Translations under genes and position numbers: made by a program
Notes under the pieces: model-generated
What the model was told of the DNA's origin: nothing
The model's database searches: none
Seen by the model: only the letters and a program-made list of their open reading frames with translations
From: a virus
IMG/VR virus record: IMGVR_UViG_3300006174_000054
Span: 1 to 21,022 of that record
DNA length: 21,022 nucleotides
Strand: one strand, 5' to 3'
Shown here: positions 10,772-14,863 of the stretch, one piece after another
How the letters are laid out: every line of letters starts with the position of its first letter
Position numbering within the stretch: position 1 is the stretch's first letter

Positions 10772-11779
10772 TTACAGGGCAATCGCGCCCGTGATGTTCG
10801 TGACCGCCGCCTGAGTGGTGGGCTTCGTGCAAACGAGTTCCAGAAGCGTCAGCACGACGCCGACGTAGCCAAGTACCGAACTGGACAGCAGGCTCTCGAA
10901 TCCGCTGAAACTGAAGTTCGCCATGTCGTGGATGTACAGATTCAGGTAGTTCTTGTTCAGCAGGTACAGCGTACCCTCCGGGCATCCGAGGTCGACGTAG
11001 ATCGGCACGCCGCCGATGTCGAGCGCGCGGAAGGCCGAGCGCGGCCGGTCGCCGTCCGAATCGAATCCCTTGCCCGGCTGGATCTGGTAGGACTCGATGC
11101 CGATGAAATCGTCCGCGAGCTTCGCCCAGGTCCCCGGTCCCATGACGCCCATCGTCGGACTCTCGGAGCCGTACTTCTGCACGCCCACGATGTAGTGCAT
11201 GACGAGCGAGCGGGTGGGCGCGGCGGCGGCGTTGTACTGCTTGCTCTGCCACCACGTATTGGCTCGCGGCTGACCGCCGTAGGTCGAAGCGGTCGTGCCG
11301 TCGTCGATGGCGCCGGGGAAGCCGATGAGCTGCTGCGTGTTGGTGCCGTTGTTGTACAGCGCGTTCTGGAGCGCCGCGGCACCGTTGTTTCCGGCATCGT
11401 TCATGCGCGCTTCAAGGAGCGGGACGACGGCGTGATTGAGTTGCAACGCGCCTTCCATGCCGAGGAACGTGACCGGCGTGATGAGCGCCTTGACGTTGAA
11501 CTCCGCCAGATACGCGCCCTGCTGCTGGGTGGGGGTGTTGAAGTTACCCGCGTACCCCGTCCACTGCGAAGTGGTCATCGGTGCGCCCTGGATCGGCACC
11601 GACACAGAGGACACGCCGCCCGAGCAGGACTGCGCCTGCGAGAGCAGCGCGGCCAGCACCGGCGAGGATTGGTAAATCTGCACCACCATCGACGGGACGT
11701 ATGCCCGGCGCGTGACTGCCGCAAGCTCTGCGCCGTAGGGCGCTGAGGCGGGGACGATTCCTGTACCGTATTGCGGCAT
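10772..11779 (-). CDS. Major capsid protein
   Basis: A 335-aa protein with GGAG nine bases before ATG 11779. The N-terminal region (residues 20-60) is helical, followed by a beta segment (SVSVPIQG) and a Gln/Asn/Tyr-rich loop, compatible with the N-arm and E-loop of an HK97-type coat. The pattern IDDGTTASTYGGQPRANTWW near the middle is one I associate with phage major capsid proteins, where a Gly-rich loop and N-x-W-W sit before the spine helix and P domain. The C-terminal part has DIGGVPIYVD and a beta-rich end. The scaffold-like gene lies directly upstream, and portal and terminase further up, as expected for a head operon. The length is typical (300-400 aa) for non-processed coats. The HK97 fold is inferred; I saw no obvious maturation protease in the window. 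Confidence 0.88.
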   Translation of the reverse strand: MPQYGTGIVPASAPYGAELAAVTRRAYVPSMVVQIYQSSPVLAALLSQAQSCSGGVSSVSVPIQGAPMTTSQWTGYAGNFNTPTQQQGAYLAEFNVKALITPVTFLGMEGALQLNHAVVPLLEARMNDAGNNGAAALQNALYNNGTNTQQLIGFPGAIDDGTTASTYGGQPRANTWWQSKQYNAAAAPTRSLVMHYIVGVQKYGSESPTMGVMGPGTWAKLADDFIGIESYQIQPGKGFDSDGDRPRSAFRALDIGGVPIYVDLGCPEGTLYLLNKNYLNLYIHDMANFSFSGFESLLSSSVLGYVGVVLTLLELVCTKPTTQAAVTNITGAIAL

Positions 11780-11799: not shown

Positions 11800-12315
11800 T
11801 TACCCGGCTCTGCGGGCTTTGAGAATTTCGTCGATGGAAGCGTGCGCCTGTTGCGCGGCCCATTTGCGCCGGTCGCCCCAGATTTCCTTGGCGTCGGGCA
11901 GCACGTCCTTGCGCACCGTCTCGAAGGTCGAGGGGGTCGCGGCGGCGATCCGCTTGGACAGTTCCACATGCTCCATCGCGGTTTCCCAACTGCCGATGTG
12001 CTTTTCGACGATGGCCTTTTCCACTTCGGCCGGATCGAGGCCGCGGGCGGTGGCTTCGGCGTGCTTGCGCTCGCGGTTGCGCTGCGCGGATTCCTCGATC
12101 TGCCGCTGTTCCAGTTCCGCGATCTTCTTGTCGCGGGACGCCAGGCTCGCATCGAACTGCGTTTCCTGCTCGATTTCCGGGAACCGATACGTCGAGGGCG
12201 CGGCCTTCATGAGCAGTTTCTTCGTCTCACGGCTCAGTTCCGGGTTTTCCAGCAACGCGAGGGCCGCGCGCGCGAGGTTGTCGCGCTGTTCCTCGGTTTT
12301 GTTTTCGAGCGACAT
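11800..12315 (-). CDS. Putative scaffolding protein
   Basis: A 171-aa protein with AGGGG seven bases before ATG 12315. It is almost entirely charged helix: residues 1-40 (EEQRDNLARAALALLENPEL), a long Glu/Arg/Lys-rich coiled coil about 55-95 (SRDKKIAELEQRQIEESAQ), then further helices ending in the basic tail EILKARRAG. High helix content, small size, basic C-terminal end and position immediately before the major capsid gene are the usual features of phage scaffolding proteins, which assemble the procapsid and leave before or during packaging. There is no protease motif, so removal would be by exit rather than self-cleavage. Scaffolds share little sequence, so the call is by context. Confidence 0.75.
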   Translation of the reverse strand: MSLENKTEEQRDNLARAALALLENPELSRETKKLLMKAAPSTYRFPEIEQETQFDASLASRDKKIAELEQRQIEESAQRNRERKHAEATARGLDPAEVEKAIVEKHIGSWETAMEHVELSKRIAAATPSTFETVRKDVLPDAKEIWGDRRKWAAQQAHASIDEILKARRAG

Positions 12316-12567: not shown

Positions 12568-13008
12568 CTACTGCAAAGTCGGTGCGCCGCCCGGCGCGCC
12601 ACCTGGCGCGGCTCCGGGGGGTGCGGCGGGTTTCGGGGGGGCGCCAGGGCCGGCTTGGCTCTGAAGCGCCTGCATCAGTTCGGCGGGCATCAGCTTCTGG
12701 CTCTGCTCCTCGTTCTTGCCGAATTCCTTTTTCAGCGTCGACAACGCGGCGAGGCAGGCATCGAAGTCCTTGGACGCCGGCCCGAAGTCCATCATCGCCA
12801 AGGTGAGGATGTGCTGCGCGACCATGACTTTCGCCTTGCCGCTCGCCTGATTACCGGCCGGTTTCTGCGGGGTGAGCATCGGAGAGGCGGATGGTCCGCC
12901 CTGTGGTGCTGGCGCCGGCGGAGCGCCCGGAGGTCCGCCTGCGGGAGCGGCGGAAGCGTCGGGCGGCATGTCAGGCATGGGCATGGAGCCGGACGTTGTG
13001 CCGTTCAC
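12568..13008 (-). CDS. Pro/Ala-rich head-region protein of unknown function
   Basis: A 146-aa protein read from GTG 13008; no convincing ribosome binding site precedes it, and ATG 12984 is an alternative with no better site. Residues 1-55 and 114-146 are low-complexity Pro/Ala/Gly (PAGGPPGAPPAPAPQGG, PPGAAPGGAPGGAPTLQ). Between them residues 58-112 form a well-defined helical core (KVMVAQHILTLAMMDFGPAS and LAALSTLKKEFG). The flanks probably act as flexible arms around one small helical domain. It is the first gene after the terminator-like hairpin and so opens the head-gene block. A scaffold-associated or capsid accessory role is possible; the family is unknown to me. Weak initiation may make its translation depend on upstream RNA folding. 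Confidence 0.65.
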   Translation of the reverse strand: MNGTTSGSMPMPDMPPDASAAPAGGPPGAPPAPAPQGGPSASPMLTPQKPAGNQASGKAKVMVAQHILTLAMMDFGPASKDFDACLAALSTLKKEFGKNEEQSQKLMPAELMQALQSQAGPGAPPKPAAPPGAAPGGAPGGAPTLQ

Positions 13009-13029
13009 AACGGGAATGTCAAGCGCCCG

Positions 13030-13063
13030 AAATGAAACGACCCCGGTTTTTAGGCCGGGGTCG
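13030..13063 (-). terminator. Rho-independent-like terminator hairpin
   Basis: On the minus strand a perfect 9-bp GC-rich stem (13063-13055 pairs with 13046-13038, CGACCCCGG with CCGGGGTCG) encloses an 8-base loop and is followed by TTTCATTT. The tail is only partly U-rich, so termination may be incomplete and allow read-through into the head genes. On the plus strand no T tract follows, so the element is directional. Confidence 0.65.
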
Positions 13064-13072
13064 CAGTGGGAA

Positions 13073-13092
13073 GCGGGGCATTTCAGCCCCGC
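13073..13092 (-). promoter_or_regulatory. Second tandem hairpin of the leader-like region
   Basis: A perfect 7-bp stem (GCGGGGC with GCCCCGC) and a six-base loop (TGAAAT on the minus strand). It begins one base after the preceding hairpin and lies ten bases before the terminator-like one. No T tract follows it. Confidence 0.6.
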
Positions 13093-13093
13093 C

Positions 13094-13128
13094 GGTCAGC
13101 GGGCGGATGAGGGGGGAAACCGCTGACC
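13094..13128 (-). promoter_or_regulatory. First tandem hairpin of the leader-like region
   Basis: A perfect 9-bp stem (GGTCAGCGG with CCGCTGACC) and a 17-base loop that holds six consecutive C on the transcribed strand. It starts seven bases after the stop of the 12-codon ORF, so a ribosome ending there would cover its 5' arm. The C-run could pair with G-runs in the next hairpins. Confidence 0.6.
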
Positions 13129-13135
13129 TAGAGCT

Positions 13136-13174
13136 TTAACGCTTGCTCTTGCGCCGACGTCGGGACAGAACCAT
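13136..13174 (-). CDS. 12-codon Arg/Lys-rich small ORF with consensus ribosome site
   Basis: ATG 13174 to TAA 13136 encodes MVLSRRRRKSKR. A full AAGGAG lies seven bases before the ATG, the best ribosome binding site near any start in this part of the window. Five of twelve residues are Arg and two are Lys; the four consecutive Arg codons are CGA, CGT, CGG and CGC, all different. It lies 33 bases after the portal stop and just before three hairpins. It may be a leader peptide that couples translation to transcript folding, or a tiny basic protein that binds DNA or RNA. A short ORF can arise by chance, so existence of the peptide is not certain; the ribosome site is the main support. Confidence 0.5.
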   Translation of the reverse strand: MVLSRRRRKSKR

Positions 13175-13207
13175 GTGGGCTCTCCTTATCAAACCGACGT
13201 TCCCTTA

Positions 13208-14863
13208 TCACTTGCGAATCTTAGTCACTTTCTGGCCAGCCGCTTCCGCGGCTTGCTGTGCCTTGGCCGCAGCGGCTTCGGCAGGTTCGATCTTAGTCTT
13301 GAGATTCACTTTCAGCAAGTCCTTAATCGGCACTTGCAGCAGGTCCAGCAGTTCCTCGCGGTCGATCGCCTTGGCTTTGAACAGCAGCAGCGCCGTCTCG
13401 CGCGAATCGGCCATGAACAGCGGCGAGTTGCTGTGCGCATCGACGCGCACGATAAAATCGTCCGTGAACTGACTCGCCGTGAACTCGACGCCGGCAATCT
13501 CGTCGCGGAACCGGGATTTCGAGTATTTCTGCAAGAGTCGCAGGTACAGCGTCGCGAGTTCCTCAAGCGAATCCTCGACGATCATCGCGCGGCGCTTGGC
13601 GCGCGAGGCACCCACTCGCAGGAGCTGCGCGGCATGGGATTCGCTTCGGACCCCGGACTCGCCCTGTCCGCTCATGATCGGCGTCGTGCCCATCTGATCG
13701 TCGAACTGCGTATCCAGATACGTAATTTCCGAAAAGAGGTCATCCGGGATCGTCGTTTGAAGCTTCTCTGCCTTCCCGCCGGGGTTGTCGGACAGCACGA
13801 GCCCGTTCGGGGTGTCCATCGCGTCCTGGATTTCATCGACCGAGCCATCGAAGCCGGTCGCATAGCTGGGCGGGGACGCCTGGAGTTCCATCATGTGCTG
13901 GACCTGATCCCAGCGGCGATTGCGCATCTTCTGAAGCACGATCAGCCGCTCGACGGCCGAGATGCCGTAAAAGTAATCGTGCATCGGAAACGGGCAGATT
14001 TGCACGAACGGCAGCGCGTTGGGCAGGTAGAGGTTCGAGATCGGCCGGTCGTAGACGATGATGCCGGGGTGCGCAAGCGTGAACACCGTATAGTCGTGGA
14101 TCGAATCGTCGAACACGTACAGTTCGTGCATCCGCACCATCGGCTGCGCGAGTTTCGGCTTGTACGGCATCCGCACGCCGAGCGAGGGATTAAATTGCCC
14201 GGTGACGACCGGCATCGCGCTCGATGTGATGATACGGTCGATCGGCTGCGCGGTCTGATCGTCCTTCTGCTCCTCGTTCGCCACCGCATCGTCGACGATC
14301 TGCTGGGCGCTGGGGTGATTGGCCAGTTTCAGTTCGTACAGCAGTTGCGATTTCGGGATCAGGTAGGTGTGGGAGATGGCTTCCTGGTTTTCCAGTCCCA
14401 CCATATCTTCGCGCCACACGCCGAAGTTATGAGGCTCCACGATATCCGGGCTGATCTGAGAGACATTCCAGCGCGGCTTGATGAACATGCTGCCGTACAC
14501 ATACGCCCAGGTGAGCGCATCGCCATAGCGGATGTCCGTATTGCTCGCGTGCCAGACATCGTTCACGGCTTCGGAGAGCGGCGGCACCTTGCCGTATTCG
14601 TCCTGCGGGACCGATTTCGACAGTTCCACGGAGAATCGCGTCGTGTCCTGGCTGTAGTTGAAACTCACCGATTGGTCGATATGCGACCAGATTTTGTTCA
14701 CCGTGCCCTGGATTTCCGCTTCCGTTTCGCAGCCGTAGAGGTAGAAGGTTTTCAGCGTTCGGTAGGCTTCGCGTCGATCTTCCTGGCTCGCGGTGCAGAG
14801 TTGCAACACGTCATGGATGAATTCCTGCCGCTCGATGCCGGGTTTGTCGTCTGGGATTTTCAT
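13208..14863 (-). CDS. Portal protein
   Basis: A 551-aa protein starting at ATG 14863, overlapping the zinc-ribbon gene stop by four bases (ATGA). Residues 60-180 contain the early portal pattern, including SHIDQSVSFNYS, RYGDALTWAYVYGSMFIKPRWN and EPHNFGVWREDM. Later parts include IVLQKMRNRRWDQVQHMMELQ, which fits the wing and stem helices, then NGLVLSDNPGG and the segment GTTPIMSGQGESGVRSESHAAQLLRVGASRAKRRA (here in pieces), a stretch I associate with portal proteins of podoviruses. The C-terminus is Ala/Lys/Gln-rich helix, as in portals that extend into the head. Length fits the usual 450-750 aa. Portal forms the dodecameric ring for DNA entry and binds terminase during packaging; both genes are adjacent here. 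Confidence 0.85.
   Translation of the reverse strand: MKIPDDKPGIERQEFIHDVLQLCTASQEDRREAYRTLKTFYLYGCETEAEIQGTVNKIWSHIDQSVSFNYSQDTTRFSVELSKSVPQDEYGKVPPLSEAVNDVWHASNTDIRYGDALTWAYVYGSMFIKPRWNVSQISPDIVEPHNFGVWREDMVGLENQEAISHTYLIPKSQLLYELKLANHPSAQQIVDDAVANEEQKDDQTAQPIDRIITSSAMPVVTGQFNPSLGVRMPYKPKLAQPMVRMHELYVFDDSIHDYTVFTLAHPGIIVYDRPISNLYLPNALPFVQICPFPMHDYFYGISAVERLIVLQKMRNRRWDQVQHMMELQASPPSYATGFDGSVDEIQDAMDTPNGLVLSDNPGGKAEKLQTTIPDDLFSEITYLDTQFDDQMGTTPIMSGQGESGVRSESHAAQLLRVGASRAKRRAMIVEDSLEELATLYLRLLQKYSKSRFRDEIAGVEFTASQFTDDFIVRVDAHSNSPLFMADSRETALLLFKAKAIDREELLDLLQVPIKDLLKVNLKTKIEPAEAAAAKAQQAAEAAGQKVTKIRK

Follow-up and report, generated by a model that had tools for sequence, protein, structure and literature searches.

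A conserved candidate micro-gene for a short polycationic peptide between the portal and capsid genes of tailed phages

The window analysed here is the whole of a 21,022-base virus record (IMGVR_UViG_3300006174_000054), in which the minus strand carries every gene around the element of interest (Table 1). This element, a very short, basic open reading frame (ORF) followed by three hairpins, lies between packaging and head genes, as a sequence-only reading of the same DNA had placed it: the terminase large subunit, a 143-aa gene and the portal gene are upstream, and a 146-aa gene, a 94-aa gene, a scaffold-position gene and the major capsid gene are downstream. Relatives share both the position of the 146-aa gene and its Pro/Ala-rich N-terminus; a family search with the scaffold-position gene returned no match. 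Elsewhere in the window, a phage protein bearing three PASTA domains (18041-17181) adjoins the terminase gene, and a collagen-like, GPAGPQG-rich protein is encoded at 1548-676.

Table 1 Features of the portal–capsid boundary in the window, with one pseudoknot example from a relative.
Feature	Position	Strand	Basis or detail
Terminase large subunit	17179-15293	minus	Gene block before the element
143-aa gene	15291-14860	minus	Between terminase large subunit and portal
Portal protein gene	13208..14863	minus	Upstream neighbour; PF23899 SU10_portal, E 3.7e-10; phrog_104
Shine-Dalgarno AAGGAG	13182..13187	minus	7 nt before the micro-ORF ATG at 13174
Predicted micro-gene	13136..13174	minus	Peptide MVLSRRRRKSKR, 12 aa, net charge +7; sequence, conservation in 74/98 loci, pN/pS
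Hairpin 1	13094..13128 (13128-13120/13102-13094)	minus	9 bp, 17-nt loop; absent from nearest relative
Hairpin 2	13072..13093 (13093-13086/13079-13072)	minus	8 bp, 6-nt loop; absent from nearest relative
Hairpin 3, intrinsic-terminator-like	13030..13064 (13064-13055/13046-13037)	minus	10 bp, 8-nt loop; tail TTCATTT 13036-13030
Promoter-like site, capsid operon	12994..13022	minus	TTGACA 13022-13017, N17, weak -10 ACAACG
146-aa gene	12568..13008	minus	First past the boundary; GTG 13008, ATG 12984 likelier start
94-aa gene	12602-12318	minus	Between 146-aa gene and scaffold-position gene
Scaffold-position gene	11800..12315	minus	Position before the major capsid gene
Major capsid protein	10772..11779	minus	phrog_9953 (PHROG major head protein), E 3.2e-31
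Pseudoknot example	L075:6856-6902		A3 alignment

The 12-codon ORF with a full AAGGAG Shine-Dalgarno (SD) sequence that had been described is indeed present, reading from the ATG on the minus strand, and its codons (ATG GTT CTG TCC CGA CGT CGG CGC AAG AGC AAG CGT TAA) include the reported run of four different, consecutive Arg codons (CGA CGT CGG CGC). It is the only stop-defined ORF of the window with 7-25 codons, at least 50% Lys+Arg and an SD. Beyond its stop codon, the three hairpins make up the minimum free energy and centroid structures alike, with a fold energy of -55.2 kcal/mol over 107 nt (shuffled sequences, -34.0 ± 3.1; z = -6.8; 0 of 200 shuffles as stable). Of the stem lengths originally given (9, 7 and 9 bp), the number of stems and the 9 bp of the first stand, and the second and third are corrected to 8 and 10 bp. 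The last stem was rightly called terminator-like: it is GC-rich, runs into TTCATTT (an interrupted T tract) and ranks first among 17 terminator-like sites found on scanning 18 kb, across which the overall number of such sites was not above that in shuffles.

Relatives were sought through the portal protein, not the ORF, giving 16 viral loci, a further 80 by profile, 10 on genome contigs and 2 in annotated environmental phages. Of the portal-related loci, 98 extend at least 450 nt past the portal; ORFs of 8-20 codons that follow an SD and are at least 45% Lys+Arg (the SD before each counted family member being part of the search rule) were found in 74 of these, as one (32 loci), two (41) or three (1) copies, a strong pass for conservation of the ORF in relatives, which had been set beforehand as a test. 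Under a stricter rule (7-25 codons, at least 50% Lys+Arg, SD), applied to both strands of 109 loci (841,585 bp), 123 matches fell in the 900 nt past the portal, versus 0.9 expected from the rate elsewhere in the same loci. The remaining 24 of the 98 loci carry no recognisable copy, and the micro-gene is therefore not essential throughout the group; L008-L016 (except L011), L036, L040, L046 and L109 represent related clades in which the micro-ORF is missing. A further basic micro-ORF, located about 1.2 kb past the portal (MTNRLRKWRK, MLRKWRK), was judged spurious, because the surrounding DNA is the scaffold-position gene, open in another frame.

Typical family peptides include MRRKHRRGRK, MAKRKGRKHR, MARRKRRGRKSKR, MYKAHKRGRKTRR, MARKARKGRKARK and MRKGRKGRKSRK. 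The clade of the window has few sequences, and the window peptide itself, which has no Gly-Arg-Lys core, is one of the most diverged; its nearest relative, L020 (77% portal identity), carries MLNRNVLSRRKRKSRR, VLSRRxRKSxR being common to the two, and a scan with the L020 portal for closer relatives of the window recovered L020 alone. Deeper relatives (capsid 46%) carry MARGKKRTKRSKKR (L239) and MAKRGKKRAAKRSKKR (L240) in the same place, before the capsid operon, with a distant portal relative directly upstream of the micro-ORF in L239. A different long stem follows the micro-ORF in this pair (L239 3340-3390, CCAGGCCAC...GACAACTGGCCCCG; L240 2290-2350). A capsid scan added several loci, among which L232, L233, L234 and L241 show the micro-ORF. 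No cultured member was found by portal or capsid among 50,697 phage records, nor was a comparable ORF found in Hydrogenobaculum phage 1 or in a Vibrio phage with a distant terminase. SU10 and phiEco32 (Kuravirus) resemble the window in gene order (terL, portal, small gene, scaffold, capsid) and in portal Pfam family, but differ in the 9-nt gap from the portal to the next gene, which leaves no room for a micro-ORF and rules one out in both.

To assess the genomic context of these peptides, the viral collection was scanned blindly with two DNA patterns (SD-ATG-[RKGRKxRK]-stop and SD-ATG-[GRK(S/T)xR]-stop); the totals are lower bounds, and the two sets partly overlap. The first pattern gave at least 78 newly fetched matches; among the matches listed, a portal relative was present at most 1.2 kb upstream of 69, and the remaining 9 were no more than about 430 nt from a contig end. 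The second gave at least 88 in-frame matches; among the matches listed, 83 had a portal upstream, the other 5 were within 200 nt of a DNA end and none was elsewhere. For both scans, all 166 of the matches listed had either a portal upstream (152) or a contig edge nearby (14).

Five groups of equal-length ORFs returned pN/pS values (Nei-Gojobori) of 0.35, 0.37, 0.30, 0.33 and 0.36, versus 1.6-2.2 for the same letters in the +1 frame; these figures express constraint without amounting to a calibrated test, since the counts come from related sequences rather than independent events. Selection is accordingly judged from codon comparison to act on the peptide. Family members have 10-20 residues (mostly 12-14), of which 34% are Arg and 30% Lys (about 64% together) and the others are mainly Gly, Ala, Ser and Thr; net charge ranges from +5 to +11 (median +8), and a single acidic residue occurs across 134 distinct peptides. 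Most Arg codons in the family (459 of 540, or 85%) are CGT or CGC. On these comparisons, the micro-ORF is a predicted protein-coding gene, the last of the terminase–portal block.

Conservation extends to the boundary that follows. A terminator-like site under a strict rule occurs in 9 of the 16 window-clade loci (0.2 expected), the L020 terminator falling just under that rule because T residues lie inside its stem. Within 170 nt past the ORF, a TTGAC box is present in 12 of the 16 window-clade loci (1.9 expected) and 45 of 55 others (9.8 expected), and its conservation beyond the terminator indicates that the capsid genes probably have a promoter of their own. A promoter scan of the window did not call the site, in which TTGACA is the -35 and the -10 was not recognisable, so that conservation is what points to capsid promoter activity. 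In the window (13022-12984) and its clade, the first capsid-operon ATG lies about 40 nt past TTGACA and has no SD, which suggests a leaderless or nearly leaderless capsid mRNA. L036, L040 and L046 have no micro-ORF, yet in them an ORF of about 55 aa is followed by the terminator and a TTGACG box, and the boundary is therefore independent of the peptide. We consider it probable that the locus combines a conserved micro-gene, a terminator and a separate capsid-operon promoter. The micro-gene would encode a polycation of 10-20 residues and close the terminase–portal transcription unit, the last hairpin would act as the intrinsic terminator ending this terL–portal–micro-gene unit, and the TTGACA box beyond it would start a separate capsid operon.

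Many relatives (about 42-46% portal identity) carry two tandem paralogues, A (MYxxxKRGRKTRR type) and B (M(A)RKxRKGRKxRK type), with starts typically 112-122 nt apart. After the portal in L071 and L101, a 20-residue variant peptide (MYGKMPKPMKKPMKRDTKRK, MYGKMPKPMKKPPMRDGKRS) replaces the A micro-ORF. An H-type pseudoknot precedes B (stem 1, xGGG/CCCx'; stem 2, GGCUGCYU/RRGUGGCC; L1 usually UGU/UAU; A-rich L3), lying 49-61 nt before the B start, also where A was not found. In an alignment of 35 loci picked for their ORFs and spacing, pairing held in 94% of cells, with 36 double-changed versus 8 in shuffled and at most 6 in slid alignments. For 99 upstream-of-B sequences selected solely on ORF and clade, pairing held in 90.5% of cells, with 98 double-changed versus 26.6 shuffled and 5-19 slid; 12 of 111 regions had been excluded from this set (nine of the window clade and its neighbours, and L098, L203 and L170), and leaving out the last three, which are visibly without the pseudoknot, favours pairing slightly. 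Pairing at the centre of stem 2 departs from Watson-Crick in 98 of the 99 rows (77 UG/UG, 18 UU/UC, others), the lone exception looking misaligned, which suggests recognition rather than mere stability. Taken alone, the descriptor has about 1.9 matches per kb and is therefore discounted, the evidence being covariation on ORF-chosen regions; in the window it gave a chance-level match inside hairpins 1 and 2 only, which we rejected. Because the window is without B and the pseudoknot, the motif bears on the family and not on the window hairpins. Rfam had no match at the gathering threshold at the micro-gene region of the window, L106, L107, L126 or L188, nor at this region in seven other loci searched up to E 5; the window, its hairpins and the pseudoknot were all unmatched. 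The position of B behind a covarying pseudoknot suggests dose control at translation.

The peptide would be well translated and would bind nucleic acid through its charge. We infer a nucleic-acid role from composition and gene neighbourhood only, and the head-gene neighbourhood favours a part in genome packaging or particle assembly. The likeliest role, which we advance as plausible though short of probable, may be that of a protamine-like or J-protein-like counter-ion or condenser for packaged DNA or the packaging machinery; the terminase–portal unit, as opposed to the capsid operon, is not obviously the site for the gene of an abundant virion component. Protein J of the Microviridae (phiX174, alpha3, G4) has about 23-37 aa and binds the packaged genome, and its hydrophobic C-terminal part docks in the capsid. 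Like J, the micro-gene product is a tiny and highly basic phage peptide whose gene lies among those of the head; unlike J, which belongs to single-stranded DNA phages, it has 10-20 aa and no hydrophobic part, comes from double-stranded DNA tailed phages and has a putative virion role. Such peptides are too short for homology search, and the analogy is therefore one of size, charge and gene neighbourhood only. Adenovirus mu, Arg-rich and protamine-like, packs the viral genome. Baculovirus P6.9, also Arg-rich, does so too (PMC12159748). The likeness to both is in Arg-rich composition; both are longer and from eukaryotic viruses, whereas DNA binding by the present peptides is putative.

RNA binding ranks as the main rival to a packaging or assembly role. 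An arginine-rich-motif peptide could act as a regulator by binding phage RNA, chiefly the pseudoknot before its own paralogue (autogenous control), and the peptide of the window lineage would then target other hairpins instead; taken jointly, we regard these two forms as unlikely. They draw on the strong covariation of the pseudoknot ahead of B, even where no A was detected, and on the non-Watson-Crick middle of stem 2 in effectively all 99 sequences, altered RNA grooves of that kind being read by arginine-rich peptides. There is also a precedent in T4 gp32, which binds a pseudoknot 67 nt before its own start codon (PMC3014915). The T4 gene 32 leader is alike in placing an H-type pseudoknot some tens of nucleotides ahead of the start codon for a phage protein that binds nucleic acid; here, however, the pseudoknot belongs to the sister-clade B paralogue only, not to the window, and the likeness is one of arrangement. 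Against an RNA-binding regulator, neither the window nor its clade has a pseudoknot, a ribosome or host protein could equally read the motif, and paralogues and lineages share composition over fixed sequence, which non-specific binding fits better. A more elaborate and rather doubtful proposal is an RNA-controlled system of two peptides, in which polycations of 12-14 residues are encoded in tandem and B follows an H-type pseudoknot of a new class, marked by an obligatory non-Watson-Crick step; by reading this pseudoknot, the peptide would adjust its own dose to how much phage nucleic acid is present.

Quite unlikely, in our view, is a host- or ribosome-directed peptide, that is, a polycation with ribosomes or rRNA as its target, or one that affects the host late in infection. 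Ribosomal proteins do include very small, very basic peptides, and a strong SD and narrow Arg codon choice suggest good translation, but the portal linkage of every listed pattern match with enough sequence fits assembly better.

The sequence-only reading had favoured a ribosome-mediated attenuator, in which the Arg run would stall a ribosome, re-pair hairpins 1-3 and so gate transcription into the head genes. The his and trp leader attenuators have a short ORF, hairpins and a terminator-like stem in a row, and the window has the same parts in that order, Arg run included; it differs from them in offering no alternative pairing, no kept single-residue run and no conserved hairpins 1 and 2, and in the TTGAC box downstream. 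Constraint folding revealed no competing structure: the terminator kept a pair probability of 0.98-0.99 with a ribosome on the Arg run or the stop codon, or with hairpin 1 or hairpin 2 blocked. The stems, expected to be conserved, are not kept as a set: L020 is without hairpins 1 and 2 and retains the terminator stem alone, the hairpins of other relatives differ, and only the terminator-like stem recurs, at about 4 to 72 nt from the stop codon across the clade. The suggested sensing of Arg-tRNA fails as well, as Arg and Lys interchange at most positions (MRRKHRRGRK, MAKRKGRKHR, MARKARKGRKARK), making the sensing of one tRNA impossible, and the family confines its Arg codons largely to the CGT/CGC pair. 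With a TTGAC box beyond the terminator in most loci, and with L036, L040 and L046 keeping terminator and box but no ORF, attenuation is unsupported and very improbable. Least credible is the plain alternative of a terminator after the portal with a short ORF arising by chance or as a GC-rich by-product: it is right about the conserved terminator, and 12-codon ORFs are common in any DNA, but it misses the conserved gene, chance being refuted for the ORF by the excess of SD-led Lys/Arg-rich ORFs (123 versus 0.9), purifying selection and the single genomic context among the matches listed.

Genes of 10-14 codons usually fall below what gene callers accept. In both annotated relatives checked (MW202753 and MW202825), the micro-ORFs are unannotated and a minus-strand CDS is drawn across the region; these CDSs are likely spurious and hide real micro-genes. 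The deposited features are hypothetical CDSs at 4740-5038 of L018 and 5279-5539 of L019 (MW202753, MW202825), drawn over the two micro-ORFs there. In the literature covered, to which a 2022 survey of small phage genes does not belong, we found no account of such peptides.

Together, these results suggest that the micro-gene would be an addition to the small basic viral peptides, with a candidate new RNA motif attached to it in the sister clade. According to a 2010 review, T4 gene 32 may be the sole viral example of pseudoknot-based autogenous control (PMC3014915); recognition of the pseudoknot by the present peptide would add another from phages, after T4 gene 32. Were the peptide packaged instead, a tailed double-stranded DNA phage would have a protamine-like component. 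The genes of the tandem peptides would rank with the shortest in phages to bear a clear mark of purifying selection, and a family so short, with clear purifying selection, an exclusive context among the matches listed and well over 100 homologous loci, offers a test case for the minimal size of a functional phage gene.
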